Source of the DNA: a virus
IMG/VR virus record: IMGVR_UViG_3300017963_000481
Coordinates: 1 to 37,893 of that record
Length of the DNA stretch: 37,893 bases
Direction: 5' to 3' (one strand)
Positions 4,663 to 11,363 of the stretch are shown here, piece by piece (the stretch's first letter is position 1; each line of letters opens with the position of its first letter). The position numbers and the translations under genes are program-made. The notes beneath the pieces are model-generated. The model was not told the DNA's origin and made no database searches. It worked only from the letters and a program-made list of their open reading frames with translations.

Positions 4663-4941
4663 ATGACGCGTTTATCCGCAGAACGTCGAACATTTTACGA
4701 AGAGCAAAAGGCCATCAAAATTATACAGTTGGCTGCAGCAAATGAGGCGCTGACCGACGTTATCGGCTCGCCGGCGGATTACACGTTTGACTCTGGCGAA
4801 GGCTCACAGCGGACGAAAGCTCAGCGGCTTGATTATCTCTACACGCTGATTAATAGCCTTGAGGCCGAAATAGACCGGCTAATTCGGCTGTTGGCCGGTG
4901 GTGGAGGACTGGTGCACATTAACCTACGGAGGCGCATCTGA
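4663..4941 (+). CDS. Small head protein in the gpW (head-tail connector) position
   Basis: A 92-residue mostly helical protein located between large terminase and portal, exactly where lambda-type genomes place gpW. It has an N-terminal helix (RRTFYEEQKAIKIIQLAAANEAL), a short beta-like turn (ADYTFDSGEGSQ) and a C-terminal helix (LDYLYTLINSLEAEIDRLIRLL), the alpha-beta-alpha pattern of gpW-like and related connectors, though it is longer than gpW (68 residues). The Shine-Dalgarno is poor; the ATG is kept because the frame fits. It overlaps the portal start (TGATG). Function from position, not clear similarity. Confidence 0.6.
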   Translation: MTRLSAERRTFYEEQKAIKIIQLAAANEALTDVIGSPADYTFDSGEGSQRTKAQRLDYLYTLINSLEAEIDRLIRLLAGGGGLVHINLRRRI

Positions 4942-6575
4942 TGGGACTGCTAGATAAAATCAAAGAGATCTGGCACTCTGGGACGTCTCCGGTCACCCAA
5001 ATGGTTCCAGTTCGCACCGGTGCCTATTTCGGGGGCACTGGCACAATAGGCCCATACGGCGCAGGATATTTCGACGGGGCAAAGTGGCCAGGTGGGTTGA
5101 GCTCATCAGGCCGCGGGATGATTCTCGACAACAAGGTTTTGCGCCAAAACGCACGAACCACCGTCCAGGAGACGCCACAAGCCAAGGCGGTAGTTACCAG
5201 GTTTGTCGATACCGTTGTTGACTGCGGTCTGATTCTTGACTCTCAGCCGATGGCGACGATACTCGGGTTAGATCCAGAGGATGCGCGAGCATGGGGCGAG
5301 GACGTCGCAAGGCGGTTCCACTTGTGGGCCGTGTCTAAAAAGTGCTCCGTCGACGAGATAGACAATTTTTACCAACTCCAGCGGCTAGCCGGTCTACAAC
5401 AGATCCGGGACGGTGAGTTTTTCGTGAGGCTCCATTATTCTGGGCGCTCAGATTTGTCGAACCCGCTGCAACTCCAGATGATTGACGCCGACCAGATCGA
5501 CGGTTGTGGGTTTACGTCCACTTTTGGCGTCCAGTTTCGTGACGACGGTATCAGCCGGGACAAAAACGGCCGAGAGACCGGCTACCTGGTGAGCTTCTCA
5601 GACCTAGACGGCAACTATAAGCAGATCGTCGTGCCGGCCTACGGGCCGAAATCCAAACGCCGATTTATGCTCCATGCGTTTACGCGTGAGTTTGCTGGGC
5701 AGGGCCGCGGGCTGACTAGGTTTTCCCACATGATTCAGGAGTTTGAAAACATCACCGATTACTCGAGCGCCGAAATCAAAAAGGCGATCAACCAGAGTCA
5801 ATTTACGATGTTTGTCGAGCCGAGCGACACCGCCGATGCGAGCAGCCCGCTTGATAATATGGTCAGTGAGTACGCCGGTGTTGCCAGCGCAGCATACGGG
5901 GCTTACCCAACGTCATCGCCAGACGGTGAGACGCCGGTACCGTTCGATGAGTTGATGCGATACGTACCGCTACCAGAGGCCACCGACAGGGTGCCAGGCA
6001 GCGTTGGGTTGTTTAACCTGCACGCCGGAGAGACAGTCAAACCGTTTGAATCCACAGCGCCTAGCCAACAGTTTGACTCTTTTGTGGACAGCTTCACCGG
6101 ACATCTGGCTGCCTCTGTGTCGATGCCGATAGAAGTGCTCTTGATGAAGTTTGGCACGAGCTACAGCGCCTCCAGGGCCGCATTGGTGCTGTTTTGGCGC
6201 GTGGCTCAAATTCAACAAATGGAACTCGCCGCCGATTTTCTCGACTGCGTCTTTGAGGCTTGGTTATCGGAGGAGATCGCCAGGGGGAGCATCAGCGCGC
6301 CGGGCTGGCAGGATCCGATGTTGCGGCAGGCCTGGTTGAACAACACTTGGATCGGCGCCCCGATGCCATCGATTGACCCGCTCAAGGCCGCCAAGGCCGA
6401 AAAAGAATACGCCGCCCTGGGTGCCAAGGATCTCGATACTATCGCCCGAGAGGTAAACGGATCAGACGGCCGAGTGAATCGGGCGAAATTAACAAAACAA
6501 TACGAGGAGCTTCCGGTAGCACCTTGGGACGACAAAACAGGAGGGGAGTCAGATGGCGAACCCGGTAATAGTTGA
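4941..6575 (+). CDS. Portal protein, lambda gpB family
   Basis: A 544-residue member of the lambda-type portal family that forms the dodecameric ring at one capsid vertex through which DNA enters and leaves. Family-like segments include the early NARTTVQETPQAKAVVTRFV helix, the MIDADQIDG stretch, the RGLTRFSHMI segment, the SASRAALVLFWRV helix and the C-terminal WIGAPMPSIDPLKAAKAE stretch typical of gpB. Length matches. It sits between terminase/connector and, unusually, six unknown genes before the protease. The last 23 bases overlap the next gene. Confidence 0.94.
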   Translation: MGLLDKIKEIWHSGTSPVTQMVPVRTGAYFGGTGTIGPYGAGYFDGAKWPGGLSSSGRGMILDNKVLRQNARTTVQETPQAKAVVTRFVDTVVDCGLILDSQPMATILGLDPEDARAWGEDVARRFHLWAVSKKCSVDEIDNFYQLQRLAGLQQIRDGEFFVRLHYSGRSDLSNPLQLQMIDADQIDGCGFTSTFGVQFRDDGISRDKNGRETGYLVSFSDLDGNYKQIVVPAYGPKSKRRFMLHAFTREFAGQGRGLTRFSHMIQEFENITDYSSAEIKKAINQSQFTMFVEPSDTADASSPLDNMVSEYAGVASAAYGAYPTSSPDGETPVPFDELMRYVPLPEATDRVPGSVGLFNLHAGETVKPFESTAPSQQFDSFVDSFTGHLAASVSMPIEVLLMKFGTSYSASRAALVLFWRVAQIQQMELAADFLDCVFEAWLSEEIARGSISAPGWQDPMLRQAWLNNTWIGAPMPSIDPLKAAKAEKEYAALGAKDLDTIAREVNGSDGRVNRAKLTKQYEELPVAPWDDKTGGESDGEPGNS

Positions 6576-6822
6576 TATCACCCCTAAGGACACGTGGGTG
6601 AAAGTGGCCACCGCGGTCACCTATGGGGAGGTGTGGGTCATCAACAATGATCCGAACTACCTCCACACCTATAAACTGACCGGTGAGGCTGCCCCCAACG
6701 ACACCACCGACCGGCCCAAAGCGGTCAATCTGGACATCAACGCATCAATCGCACATGACGCCCTGATTGACGTCTACGTGATGGCAACCGGCGCCGTGGG
6801 GCAAGTAAGGGTGGACCTATGA
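6553..6822 (+). CDS. Small beta-rich protein of the portal-protease block (89 aa)
   Basis: Starts inside the portal gene 3' end with GAGGGGAG just upstream, and ends in an ATGA overlap with the next gene. The sequence alternates short hydrophobic strands (VIVDITPKDTWVKVATAV, then EVWVINND) like a compact beta-sandwich, with no Cys and no membrane segment. A structural or decoration role in the virion is plausible from position. No family recognised. Confidence 0.65.
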   Translation: MANPVIVDITPKDTWVKVATAVTYGEVWVINNDPNYLHTYKLTGEAAPNDTTDRPKAVNLDINASIAHDALIDVYVMATGAVGQVRVDL

Positions 6823-7427
6823 GCGGCACAGACGATTGTAGCAAACCGATTGGCAATGGCGTTAGGACGGTAGCGACACAGGGCAACCCAAGTCCGACAG
6901 CAACACCGGTCCAGGTTGGGGCAATCGCGAAGGCCGCCGAGCCGACAGCGGTAACCGCGGAGACGCTCAACTCACTCATCACCGACCTGTATCAACAGTT
7001 GGTCACCGCGGCGTTCGAGTGGGCAACCAGATCCGACCGGACCACCGAGCAGGATCCGATCTCTACACACTACAACCCTGAAAGCACTACGTCCACTGGA
7101 GCGGTGGCAAACGGCACACCGTACGACCTGATTATTGACATGGATGGCTATCGCGGGTGTGAGGTACAAATCGAGAACACTGTGGCAGGTGTGGGTGATA
7201 CGTTTGCTGTCACATATCACGCTAGCGTCGAGGGAGTCGATCCAAGCGATGCATGGCTGGACGCCACGACGAACGGCTGGAACCTTGTCGCCGGTGCCAC
7301 TCTGGCGGTGGACCATATCATGGCAGCCGAGCCGTTCCACGTGCCGCGGGGGCACATGGTGAGGATCACTACAGCTGGCGGAAACAATGATCTGGAGTTC
7401 GATATCCATGTCAAAACTTTGTATTAG
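6819..7427 (+). CDS. Hypothetical structural protein with a beta-sandwich-like C-terminal half (202 aa)
   Basis: Residues 1-75 are low-complexity and helical (rich in Thr, Ala and Pro), perhaps an anchor; residues about 85-202 read as beta strands (GYRGCEVQIENT, DTFAVTYHASVEG, HMVRITTAGGNN, LEFDIHVKTLY), similar in style to jelly-roll virion proteins. Translationally coupled to the preceding gene. The C-terminus resembles small trimerising virion proteins in general pattern only. No family recognised. Confidence 0.65.
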   Translation: MSGTDDCSKPIGNGVRTVATQGNPSPTATPVQVGAIAKAAEPTAVTAETLNSLITDLYQQLVTAAFEWATRSDRTTEQDPISTHYNPESTTSTGAVANGTPYDLIIDMDGYRGCEVQIENTVAGVGDTFAVTYHASVEGVDPSDAWLDATTNGWNLVAGATLAVDHIMAAEPFHVPRGHMVRITTAGGNNDLEFDIHVKTLY

Positions 7428-7439
7428 GGGGGTGGGGCG

Positions 7440-7757
7440 ATGGCAACCTTGCAAGATTATCTCGACGCAGCGCCTACAATAATGGCCCTTGGTGAGTTCA
7501 CGGTGAGTCAGATCAAAAACAAATTCACATCACTTCCTGACCCACCTCAACCCGGCACACCGGCGCCGATTGAAAAACAGACCGTGATTGATATTTTCAA
7601 TCAACTGTTTGCCTGTCCTGACATCGACACCGCGCTGAAACGCGCAAACGGCTACAGTGCGCTAGGGCGCCAACACGGGATTACCAAAAACCAGGCCAAG
7701 ACCATCGTCACCGAATTACGGGCGATGTTTGCAATATTTTCACAACAGGGGGAATAG
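7440..7757 (+). CDS. Small helical protein of the portal-protease block (105 aa)
   Basis: Preceded by GGGGGGTGGGG and coupled directly to the next ATG, which starts the base after its stop. Predicted as several helices (LQDYLDAAPTIMALGEF, KQTVIDIFNQLF, TKNQAKTIVTELRAMFAIF) separated by a Pro-rich loop (PDPPQPGTPAP). It is the only clearly helical protein in an otherwise beta-rich block, so it might be an adaptor. No family recognised. Confidence 0.6.
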   Translation: MATLQDYLDAAPTIMALGEFTVSQIKNKFTSLPDPPQPGTPAPIEKQTVIDIFNQLFACPDIDTALKRANGYSALGRQHGITKNQAKTIVTELRAMFAIFSQQGE

Positions 7758-8285
7758 ATGGGCGGCTGCAAATCCTCGGTTTTTATGTGTCAGCAGACGG
7801 TTAGCGCTGAGCTGTCGATAATCTTCGAGGGCAAAGCCTATTTCCACGTCAACGGGTTTCAACTCGACCAGGGTGACTCAAAAAAGTTCCTGATTGAAAT
7901 TCCCGGCGGTCCTAGTTTTGTTCACTTTAACTCGTTTCTGATGACTGGATTGGGCGCCACTTTGCAGGTGTGTGAGGGAGCCGACAGAAGTGGCGTAACT
8001 ACCAAAACGCCGTTGAATTCGAACCGAAACAAACCCGACATCGCTCTGACCTCACTCTATGAGGGGACCAGCGGCGGGACTACGGACGGCACGCCGATCA
8101 AAACCTATTTTATTGGGGCCAACACCGGAAACCCACTGGTTGACGCCGGCGGGATGGCAAACGATATGCCCAAGGTGATTTTGCAACAGAACACAAAATA
8201 CTGTCTAGATATTACATCTCAGAGCGACGGAAACAATATTACTCTCGGGCTGTGGTGGTTTGAATTTGATTCGAGGGCTTCCTAA
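7758..8285 (+). CDS. Beta-rich virion protein, paralogue of the next gene (175 aa)
   Basis: Residues about 15-175 form repeating strands (ELSIIFEGKAYFHVNGF, FVHFNSFLMTGLGATLQV). The C-terminal stretch (ILQQNTKYCLDITSQSDGNN, then GLWWFEF) aligns by eye with the end of the neighbouring 172-residue protein (ILASNTIYLFRITSAANDN, then AEWYEH); both also share an FxIxYEG or LQVCEG-type strand near the middle. The pair therefore arose by duplication. The N-terminal Cys pair (GGCKSSVFMC) is absent from its partner. Probably a decoration, fibre or receptor-contact protein; inferred. Confidence 0.7.
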   Translation: MGGCKSSVFMCQQTVSAELSIIFEGKAYFHVNGFQLDQGDSKKFLIEIPGGPSFVHFNSFLMTGLGATLQVCEGADRSGVTTKTPLNSNRNKPDIALTSLYEGTSGGTTDGTPIKTYFIGANTGNPLVDAGGMANDMPKVILQQNTKYCLDITSQSDGNNITLGLWWFEFDSRAS

Positions 8286-8803
8286 TGGGCCGCGACAAAA
8301 GCACACGGGCAGAAATTGCCATCGGTTACGAGCACCACGAGATTCATGGTGGAAGTCATTTTTTCATCGAGGATCACGCCACTTTGGCATCCGCGGCGAC
8401 CATAGATTTCGGCATACAGACAGCCAACTCGAGCAAGCATTTACACATCGTGTGGGATATCCAGTCACAGGCTGAATTTTTGTTCGATATTTACGAGGGA
8501 TCGACGATCACGTTTGACGGGGCGGATATCGAAGCGTTCAACAACGATCGCAACTCGTCAAATGTGACTAACCTGGTGCAGTTGCAAATGGATCCCACTG
8601 TGACGGCGGTCGGAACTCGTCTCGGTGGGTTTGATGTTGGTACAGCGACGAATCCAGCAACTCAAATACCCGGCGCAGGTAATAGAGATCGCGAGATTAT
8701 CCTCGCGTCGAACACAATTTATCTATTCAGGATCACCAGCGCAGCCAACGACAATACGATCTCGTATCTCGCTGAATGGTACGAGCACACGGTGAAAAGT
8801 TGA
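8285..8803 (+). CDS. Beta-rich virion protein, paralogue of the preceding gene (172 aa)
   Basis: Its ATG shares a base with the previous stop. It shows the same run of strands and the same C-terminal motif (NTxYxxxITSxxxxN, then a W-aromatic-E ending) as the preceding protein. The middle carries FLFDIYEGSTITFDGADIEAFNN, matching the partner's central strand and loop. Tandem paralogues suggest a hetero-oligomer or successive copies adapted to different contacts. Its TGA overlaps the probable TTG start of the next gene. Confidence 0.7.
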   Translation: MGRDKSTRAEIAIGYEHHEIHGGSHFFIEDHATLASAATIDFGIQTANSSKHLHIVWDIQSQAEFLFDIYEGSTITFDGADIEAFNNDRNSSNVTNLVQLQMDPTVTAVGTRLGGFDVGTATNPATQIPGAGNRDREIILASNTIYLFRITSAANDNTISYLAEWYEHTVKS

Positions 8804-10074
8804 GCTACTTGATCCCAAATAGCACCCCGGCTCAACGGGCCAGAGGCCAGTCGTTCGGAGAGAAGTTCATCTCCTCGGCCAAGGTTGGGCTGAACCGCGG
8901 GACCATTTACGGCACACCTACGATTGATTTCGGGGCGACTCTCAATGGGACGACGGATTATATTCAGTACCAGCTCAACGGCACTGAGTTTGACAGCCCA
9001 GAGATTTCTATGTTTGGTGAATTTTGGCCGTATTTTGACACGGACATTAACCAAAATGTAAGACTAATTTCTGCTGGCTCTGCTTCCGATTACACGATAC
9101 TAAAAAGGGCGAATTCCGGGAGCAATGAGCTAAGAATAAAACTCGGAAACTCTCTGCTGATCGACATAGCCGAAGCAGTGTACTCTCCCTATTGGGTTAC
9201 CAGTGGGCGAAACCAGATTTTTGTCGTTGGCGACTCCGCTACACCTTTGACGTTGGTTTATCTTAATACGCATTTGATCGGCAGTAGTAGCGTTCCGTGG
9301 GTACCAACAGCAGTTACAGCCCTATCGATAGGTGCAGACATTGGCGGCGGGTCATATTTCTCGGGCAAATGGACGGAGTTCAAGGTTTTCAAGTCCCTCC
9401 TGATCGAGCAGGAAATCAGCGACTTTTGGAACAACACCACATACAACTACCGAAACCGCGCGGTGCTAGACTTACCGATGCTCAACGCGCAGCATCAGGA
9501 AGGGATCCAGACTCTGGACGTCAGTGGCAACAACAACCATGCGGTGTTTGGAGGTGGGGCCGCTGACCCTACGAAGCTTTCCAAGCGTGGTTATTCGTTT
9601 ATCGGCGACTATATGACTCTGACTGACAATCTGTCATCACAATCGTCGCTGTGCATTTGCGGGATGATAAAACTCCTAAATCTTCCAGGGATTCGGTATA
9701 TTTGGACGATCAGAGAGGACGATGCAGACATTGGAGTTGCTTTATCTGTGTCTAGTAGTGGCGCTTTGCAGTGGCTCCACAACTCAGGAGGGTCTTTTGC
9801 AAATTCTGGCGAGGCAATAGATGCATCTCGTCCACATAGTTTTGTTGCATGTATCGACAGTTCGGACAATGCAAAGATCGCGATAGATGGCGGCGACTAT
9901 TCTGCGCCTGACTCTCTCACGATAGCAAATCGAGACGGAGAGTTTTTTCTGACGCGGAATTCGTCTGCTGCTCAGTGCTATTATTATCAGTTTTTGGTAT
10001 TCCCCTTCGCCCTAACCCCCCTCCAGGTAGCCGACCTGCACGGCAAGATGATGAGGAGCATCCAAAGAGTATGA
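8800..10074 (+). CDS. LamG/concanavalin-A-like two-domain protein, probable glycan-binding virion component
   Basis: About 424 residues. Two LamG-like lectin folds are suggested: the first about 30-215, ending in a family-like stretch (FSGKWTEFKVFKSLLIEQEI), the second about 225-420, with LDVSGNNNHA, GYMTLTD-type strand and the terminal FALTPLQVADLHGK. Such domains bind carbohydrates or other ligands. I prefer TTG 8800 (GGTGAAAAG upstream, stop-start overlap TTGA) to ATG 8776; both are possible. Placement between portal and protease suggests a capsid-side rather than tail-side adhesin. The second half is AT-richer than its neighbours. Its stop overlaps the protease ATG. Confidence 0.72.
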   Translation: MSYLIPNSTPAQRARGQSFGEKFISSAKVGLNRGTIYGTPTIDFGATLNGTTDYIQYQLNGTEFDSPEISMFGEFWPYFDTDINQNVRLISAGSASDYTILKRANSGSNELRIKLGNSLLIDIAEAVYSPYWVTSGRNQIFVVGDSATPLTLVYLNTHLIGSSSVPWVPTAVTALSIGADIGGGSYFSGKWTEFKVFKSLLIEQEISDFWNNTTYNYRNRAVLDLPMLNAQHQEGIQTLDVSGNNNHAVFGGGAADPTKLSKRGYSFIGDYMTLTDNLSSQSSLCICGMIKLLNLPGIRYIWTIREDDADIGVALSVSSSGALQWLHNSGGSFANSGEAIDASRPHSFVACIDSSDNAKIAIDGGDYSAPDSLTIANRDGEFFLTRNSSAAQCYYYQFLVFPFALTPLQVADLHGKMMRSIQRV

Positions 10075-11363
10075 AACATCTACTCAACAAAATAGCATCG
10101 AGTCGTTGGGCTATCACACCTGAGGCGCTGGAGGCCATTTGGAAACTGGCGAGCCGGGAGTGGACAGCCGCCGATTACGAGACGTTTCACGCGGCCAGCA
10201 AGGGCGACCTGATGGCGCTCACCGCCGACCTAGGGGAACCATTTGGAGAGTCGAACAACGCCTTTGTACGCGGTGACACCGGAGTGTTGCTCATCGATGG
10301 GCCTATCATTCCGAGGGCAGACAACCTCGACGCATCGTCTGGGCTAATCGGTATTAACCGCATCAGTGAGGATTTCAGGGCGCTGGAGGCGGACGACAGT
10401 GTTAAACGGATCGTTATGCTGCTTGATACCCCTGGCGGTGAGGTAACCGGAGTCGCCGATTTCGCCGATATGGTTCGGGCGTCGAAGAAGAAAACGATCT
10501 CGTACGTGTACGGCATGGCGGCCAGCGCTGGATACTGGATTGGTAGCGCAGCGGATGAGGTGGTGAGCACCAAAACCGGGATGGTCGGCAGTATCGGCGT
10601 TGTGTCGATTTTCCGCAAGGACGACGACGACACGATCGAAATAGTGTCTGACCAATCACCACTGAAACGGGCAAACCCAGAGACCGACGACGGGCGCGCC
10701 TCGATACAAGAAATGCTCAACGACCTGGCTGATGTGTTCGTAGCCGACGTCGCTGTCAATATGGGCGTCAAACCTAAAAAAGTTCTATCAGATTTTGGTC
10801 AGGGCGCGGTGGTGGTTGCTGCCAGGGCGCTCAAGGCTGGCATGATTGACCAAATCAACACACTGGACGAACTAATGTTCAGTTTTTCAAAACCCGCTAC
10901 GGGCGGGGACAACAGGAGGATTCCAATGAATCTTACCCAATTTCTGGCCGAAAACCCCGCGGCCGCTGCAGAGTTGGAGGGCCGACTCCGGGCAGAGTTT
11001 GAGCGGGGAAAAACAGAGGGGCAAGCGGCCGGCGAGACAATCGCCAAGACAAAGATTGCACGGGTAAAACCGTATCTCGCCGCTGATAGCCCTTATGGTG
11101 ATGCCGTGCGCGCGCTGTCTCTCAAGGTGCTTGACGGTGATAGCTCCATCGAGGCGCTTGACACTGTAATCACGGTGTTGGACACGCAAAAAGAGCAGTC
11201 GAATAGCACCGCTGCGAAGCAAGAGACAGCAGATATCGGCGAGACCACGCCAGAGGCGCCGGAGTCTGTTGGCGATGCTGACAGCCTGGAGATGAGCGTC
11301 AAGGACGAGGCGGTTTTTATCGAGGCCGAGCGCAAACGGCTTGGCATCGTGAGGGAGGCGTAA
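10071..11363 (+). CDS. S49-family head maturation protease with C-terminal scaffold (gpC-like)
   Basis: 430 residues; ATG 10071 overlaps the previous stop, and a further-upstream in-frame ATG (9975) lies inside the LamG gene. The protease domain is typical of SppA/lambda gpC enzymes: LLDTPGGEV at about 117-125, catalytic Ser152 in MAASAGYW, GMVGSIGVVSIF at about 170-181, and a probable Lys partner near 199 (SPLK). After about residue 286 the protein becomes a charged helical scaffold segment. It processes head proteins and itself during capsid assembly. The order protease, decoration, capsid is that of lambda C-D-E. Confidence 0.92.
   Translation: MKHLLNKIASSRWAITPEALEAIWKLASREWTAADYETFHAASKGDLMALTADLGEPFGESNNAFVRGDTGVLLIDGPIIPRADNLDASSGLIGINRISEDFRALEADDSVKRIVMLLDTPGGEVTGVADFADMVRASKKKTISYVYGMAASAGYWIGSAADEVVSTKTGMVGSIGVVSIFRKDDDDTIEIVSDQSPLKRANPETDDGRASIQEMLNDLADVFVADVAVNMGVKPKKVLSDFGQGAVVVAARALKAGMIDQINTLDELMFSFSKPATGGDNRRIPMNLTQFLAENPAAAAELEGRLRAEFERGKTEGQAAGETIAKTKIARVKPYLAADSPYGDAVRALSLKVLDGDSSIEALDTVITVLDTQKEQSNSTAAKQETADIGETTPEAPESVGDADSLEMSVKDEAVFIEAERKRLGIVREA
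10926..11363 (+). CDS. Nested in-frame scaffold protein (Nu3-like)
   Basis: Within the protease gene, AGGAGG (10914-10919) lies six bases before an in-frame ATG at 10926, an unusually strong internal ribosome-binding site. It would give a 145-residue protein: helical, Ala/Glu-rich, beginning MNLTQFLAENPAAAAELE, with a disordered Thr/Glu-rich linker and a final helix (AVFIEAERKRLG). Lambda encodes its scaffold Nu3 in the same way within gene C. The internal site is seen directly; the scaffold role is inferred from the family. Confidence 0.75.
   Translation: MNLTQFLAENPAAAAELEGRLRAEFERGKTEGQAAGETIAKTKIARVKPYLAADSPYGDAVRALSLKVLDGDSSIEALDTVITVLDTQKEQSNSTAAKQETADIGETTPEAPESVGDADSLEMSVKDEAVFIEAERKRLGIVREA

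Follow-up and report, generated by a model that had tools for sequence, protein, structure and literature searches.

A putative head-linked spike or fibre cassette in the portal-protease interval of an uncultured phage

Introduction

What do six genes packed between a portal gene and a head protease gene contribute to a tailed phage? The question is raised by an uncultured virus of bacteria, IMG/VR virus record IMGVR_UViG_3300017963_000481, whose 37,893 bases make up the window analysed here. At positions 6553-10074 of its plus strand, six open reading frames (gp1 to gp6) fill the space between the portal and an S49-type head protease. An earlier note, made from the sequence alone, had read them as one beta-rich unit and as a possibly undescribed decoration or adhesion apparatus. 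On balance we favour, with reservation, a head-linked spike or fibre cassette that occupies an accessory slot between portal and protease. The features on which the argument turns are as follows.

4941-6575, plus strand: portal, lambda-type, left boundary of the slot (PF05136, 6e-57; phrog_21)
6553-6822, plus strand: gp1, 89 aa, proposed spike-base or anchor protein
6819-7427, plus strand: gp2, 202 aa, proposed docked fibre or display protein
6849-6860, plus strand: IGNG codons of gp2 (residues 11-14), proposed docking peptide
7440-7757, plus strand: gp3, 105 aa, helical look by eye
7758-8285, plus strand: gp4, 175 aa, diverged paralogue of gp5 (phrog_5335)
8285-8803, plus strand: gp5, 172 aa, putative display domain, jelly-roll-like
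8776-10074, plus strand: gp6, two LamG/concanavalin-type domains, ATG at 8776
10071-11363, plus strand: S49-type head maturation protease, right boundary of the slot (phrog_53, 1e-67; PF01343, 1e-18)

Results

The six genes lie on the same strand and, as had been stated before, overlap or abut at most junctions. The portal and gp1 share 23 nt, gp1 and gp2 overlap by ATGA, gp3 and gp4 abut, gp4 and gp5 overlap by 1 nt, gp5 and gp6 also overlap, and gp6 runs through a second ATGA into the protease, whose ATG lies at 10071; the 12 bp between gp2 and gp3 form the only gap. On the 3' side of the block, the protease is followed by a weak head-decoration match and then by a Phage_cap_E-type major capsid protein. 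A contractile tail is encoded (sheath, tube, tape measure, hub, and wedge), with fibre genes of its own at about 26 kb. A nucleotide-level search of the block against phages and plasmids returned no match. A role in defence, as an anti-phage moron, was considered and rejected, since 0/6 block proteins match any PADLOC model.

The slot was surveyed by a gp1 scan and then by a scan for the portal family, giving 58 loci, redundancy removed, in which portal and protease are both present. A gp1 homologue lies inside the interval in 40 of these 58 complete intervals, and 38 of the 40 homologues start less than 40 bp from the portal stop (-37 to +33 bp). Behind gp1 come anywhere from zero to about ten genes, which vary between relatives, and of the 18 intervals that lack gp1, about 7 have essentially nothing in them. 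In L018, L082, and L099, gp1 sits between TerL and the portal. An occupied interval is the rule among relatives of the window portal, contrary to the rarity implied by the earlier note, and the search for the same block in other phages recovered gp1 at its place with variable cargo instead of the six-gene set. The block occupies an accessory slot, whose one constant gene is gp1, and is not a unique insertion; the notion that the six genes form one unit has to be given up, the remaining genes being exchangeable cargo.

This cargo comprises LamG lectins, jelly-roll-like proteins of the gp5 family, fibre-like proteins, and, in places, lysis genes. In a tally of Pfam domains over 102 slot proteins, LamG ranks first (4/102); F5/8 type C, beta-helix, and fibre-type domains occur as well. 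In relatives, the slot can further contain amidases, endolysins, a GTA-type holin, and homing endonucleases (HNH and GIY-YIG), so that a shared function of the neighbours is not required. In L165, L167, L134, and L171, about 5 to 8 small genes, mostly of 130 to 240 aa, lie between gp1 and the protease. The contractile-tailed phage L018 (IMGVR_UViG_3300021347_000005, 6380-9498) has another type of portal and capsid (phrog_146, phrog_264) and carries, between terminase and portal, gp1, an SGNH/lipase-like gene, a holin-like gene, and two gp5-family paralogues; hence, the cassette crosses head types.

AlphaFold2 models the constant protein, gp1, as an all-beta protein of six strands (pLDDT 84.7). 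Compared with solved structures in Foldseek, the model matched single jelly rolls weakly (best TM about 0.6, none with E<0.001), among them a pentameric phage capsid protein (4dmi/4e27) and a subunit of the Ena endospore appendage, and it resembles numerous phage proteins, uncharacterised and about 90 residues long (TM about 0.7). No match to gp1 was found in Pfam, PHROGs, NCBIfam, or PADLOC, the libraries searched for its family, nor did the family profile match any PDB sequence, and direct tblastn of gp1 and gp2 against named phages gave no usable match. We propose that gp1 is a small jelly-roll-like anchor, probably oligomeric. A kinship with the N-terminal domain of the gp5-family fusions of Artemius and 41E34.2, an idea formed by eye, came down to a match of just 18 residues and is not claimed.

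The proteins encoded directly 3' of gp1 tend to share a short N-terminal motif. In the window, gp2 begins with MSGTDDCSKPIGNG, where the motif takes the form IGNG (MSGTDDCSKP-IGNG), and the corresponding genes of relatives typically open with MIGPG, MIGTG, MIIGDG, or MSDFIGNG. The pattern IG.G (hereafter IGxG) occurs within the first 30 residues in 27/41 of these genes versus 24/1916 other genes (Fisher p 1e-36), a comparison for which the motif had been noticed in the data beforehand and in which the test set overlaps the discovery set in part. It was first seen in 21 gp1 loci; most loci of the portal scan were examined later, and the motif is present there too. Internal 30-residue windows of the same proteins contain it in 8/238 cases. 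Because related proteins inflate raw motif counts, the comparison was repeated on clusters built from sequences stripped of their first 30 residues, and the motif was found in 17 of 25 gp1-next clusters versus 21 of 981 others (p about 1e-20). Within the gp5 family, four of ten members carry it when the locus has gp1, compared with one of 53 when it does not (p 0.0016), and this single member (L112) also occupies the portal-protease slot. The position of the motif ranges from residue 2 to about residue 25, and because its distance to the start varies, an origin as a by-product of the ribosome-binding site or of the ATGA overlap was ruled out.

No match to gp2 was found in Pfam, PHROGs, NCBIfam, or PADLOC, but a protein of L060 is related to its C-terminal part (phmmer 4.8e-8). 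A gp2-like domain in the fusion proteins of L016 and L019 was suspected by eye, was missed by the gp2 profile, and is not claimed. In L099 (3325-4860), gp1 is present in two tandem copies, each with its own IGxG protein (gp1-cargo-gp1-cargo), an arrangement that suggests a duplicated two-gene unit.

The description of the block as beta-rich holds for gp1 and gp5, whose models are all-beta, but not for gp3, which reads as helical by eye and matched no family in Pfam or PHROGs. The LamG-like two-domain protein recognised from the sequence is gp6, with two Laminin_G_3 (PF13385) stretches (3.7e-14; 53.6 bits against a gathering cut-off of 27.6). Its true start is probably TTG 8800 or 8809, later than ATG 8776, because that ATG falls within the conserved WYEH end of gp5. 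No relatives of gp6 were found in viral contigs and phages, the LamG proteins of other slots showing likeness at the domain level only.

The two paralogues reported in the earlier note are gp4 and gp5, which both match phrog_5335 (3.9e-8 and 2e-12, respectively), a PHROG with no assigned function; gp4 also matches the gp5 family profile (5e-43). In the window, two diverged copies lie in the gp1 slot. Marked by the signatures GYEHHEIH and WYEH, gp5 is predicted with confidence as an all-beta fold (pLDDT 92.6), for which the PDB yielded just weak jelly-roll matches (TM at most about 0.4); a PDB sequence search with the family profile gave no match. Assignments as a TNF-like lectin or a tail-fibre CBD, which derive from such weak fold matches, were not adopted and serve as leads only.

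Scans for the gp5 family returned 65 viral loci and two loci from genome collections, with the domain found alone or as the C terminus of longer proteins. Two tandem copies directly precede a tail-tube-like gene in L002, family members adjoin head-tail joining genes in L003 and Vibrio phage Artemius, one lies between terminase and portal in MEP301, and in other podoviruses they are found among late lysis or terminase genes. In six loci (L016, L017, L019, L040, L047, and L056), the domain forms the C-terminal end of proteins of 346 to 649 aa, two of which have a long N-terminal region of coiled-coil look; these fusions look like fibre proteins tipped with a gp5 domain. A further family member (L077) lies on a contig assigned to a Woesearchaeota MAG, probably through misbinning of a phage contig.

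Discussion

The closest known system to the gp1 cassette is the head spike of RcGTA. RcGTA carries eleven such spikes, placed on capsid pentamers, in which a pentamer of the 84-aa jelly-roll protein Rcc01079 forms the base and grips the N-terminal IALGLGLGL peptide of the fibre, and the spike fibres allow the particle to attach to the polysaccharide capsule (PMC7296036). Our reference for this spike was the base Rcc01079/GhsA and the fibre Rcc01080/GhsB (NF048002; PDB 6tb9, 6tba, 6tsu, and 6tui). Like the RcGTA base, gp1 is small (89 versus 84 aa) and, in its model, all-beta with six strands, its gene lies directly 5' of, and start-stop overlaps, a gene with an N-terminal hydrophobic-glycine segment, and its proposed role is the binding of surface polysaccharide. 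The presence of such a peptide in the gene next to the base extends to the relatives (27/41 genes, 17/25 clusters).

The two systems also differ. No sequence homology to Rcc01079 is detectable in gp1, the motif of the gp1 slot is IGxG, often a few residues in, whereas RcGTA has a long (LG)n run, and gp1 is encoded behind the portal in the head operon and followed by several display proteins. At the level of sequence, membership of gp1 in the Rcc01079 family was rejected, as hhalign of the two families gave <1% probability, and the NF048002 profile recovered the base of phage RcapNL (7.9e-31) and gave no match to gp1. The 50 Foldseek matches listed for the gp1 model did not include the RcGTA base. 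In RcapNL, the 85-aa base matches Rcc01079 (2.9e-30) and overlaps a fibre gene that opens with MGLGLGIGLGL; other Rcc01079-type relatives precede MIGVGVGI and MRIGTGLGL, peptides that bridge the RcGTA form to IGxG. By analogy, then, the comparison supports the view that the gp1 cassette works like a head spike and does not support its being an Rcc01079-type spike.

In a head-linked cassette of this kind, gp1 would be an anchor on the finished particle, most likely at the capsid vertices, and gp2 a fibre or display protein held in gp1 via its N-terminal hydrophobic-glycine peptide (IGNG). We propose these roles because size, six predicted strands, gene overlap, and the class of the downstream peptide all parallel RcGTA, and on account of the same parallel a head vertex appears the likeliest site. 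The products of gp4, gp5, and the double-LamG gp6 may add further beta display modules or a second layer, co-translated with the head genes; this is probable and at the same time the weakest step, since none of these three carries IGxG in the window. The particle could then attach to surface polysaccharides at a stage when the contractile tail, with its own fibres, has yet to engage. The physical docking, the sugar binding, and the membership of gp4 to gp6 in the same structure are all put forward here as proposals.

Alternatively, anchor and fibre might sit on the neck or portal vertex, or on the tail, instead of on head vertices, a reading that we judge unlikely. Its model is the neck fibre of Anabaena phage A-1(L), which consists of a trimeric gp82 foot, repeated gp81 beads, and a distal gp80, resembles our block as a beta fibre built from several genes of a single operon, with a carbohydrate-binding module at its distal end, and attaches as a co-encoded bead chain at the neck ring, at a pentadecamer (PMC10966104). 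The coupling of gp1 to the portal rather than to the capsid genes would fit such a location, as would the gp5-family members among neck or tail genes in L002, L003, and Artemius. However, the A-1(L) fibre genes lie far from other structural genes and no IGxG/base pair is reported for them in the part of the account consulted (PMC10966104), and the chemistry of the motif fits the RcGTA vertex spike, not gp82.

Slightly less probable again is that the interval is a late moron-like region in which gp1 serves as an accessory of the head, structural or regulatory, and its neighbours are insertions unrelated to one another that form no common structure. The great diversity of the cargo, the endolysin, holin, HNH, and GIY-YIG genes of some slots, and the shifting of gp5 relatives between genome positions are what such a region would produce, but it would leave the strict position of gp1 and the gp1-linked N-terminal motif of otherwise unrelated proteins to be accounted for. 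That IGxG directs proteins into the head during assembly (as internal or ejected proteins, or through contact with protease or scaffold) is very improbable: while the slot adjoins the protease/scaffold gene and an N-terminal tag on diverse cargo would suit a packaging signal as well, the cargo domains are lectin-, jelly-roll-, and fibre-like, and the nearest experimentally seen hydrophobic-glycine N terminus, that of RcGTA, is external (PMC7296036).

Returning to the head-linked cassette, the Ig-like head decorations Hoc of T4, pb10 of T5, and gp17 of N4 are likewise accessory proteins with a beta-sandwich fold and a presumed part in adhesion (PMC7602432). They differ in being single proteins placed directly on capsomers, with no separate anchor that takes exchangeable plug-in cargo. 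The decoration or adhesion apparatus suspected at the outset survives in outline, resting on a small beta protein behind the portal, cargo of carbohydrate-binding type, a shared motif, and the RcGTA parallel. The claim that the system is undescribed survives in part: it would appear to work like the described RcGTA spike, while the gp1 family is in none of the libraries searched. In a literature search that took in few subscription journals, no paper on the portal-protease slot or the IGxG rule was found.

A broader reading, which we hold tentatively, is that many uncultured phages display proteins by plug and socket, a second kind of spike base accepting diverse proteins via an N-terminal IGxG plug. 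Such a base would share no sequence kinship with Rcc01079, and its gene would almost always follow the portal directly. If this is true, several cargo proteins per genome could give mixed sets of adhesins on single virions, and any protein might become cargo by gaining the plug, as members of the gp5 family appear to have been converted. A short N-terminal tag and a 90-residue base would then be a widespread route by which tailed phages acquire exchangeable binding proteins. The frequent unannotated genes between portal and protease would fall into a predictable functional category, with adhesion modules that can be found by rule, and many free phages would turn out to have a system linked to the RcGTA head spikes by convergence or by very remote kinship. 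There is a real chance that the gp1 cassette is such a widespread convergent system.

In L106 (5027-5947), a protein adjacent to gp1 has three or more motifs of the IGPG/IGPD type within its first 50 residues, a repetition that recalls the multi-Leu fibre peptide of RcGTA.
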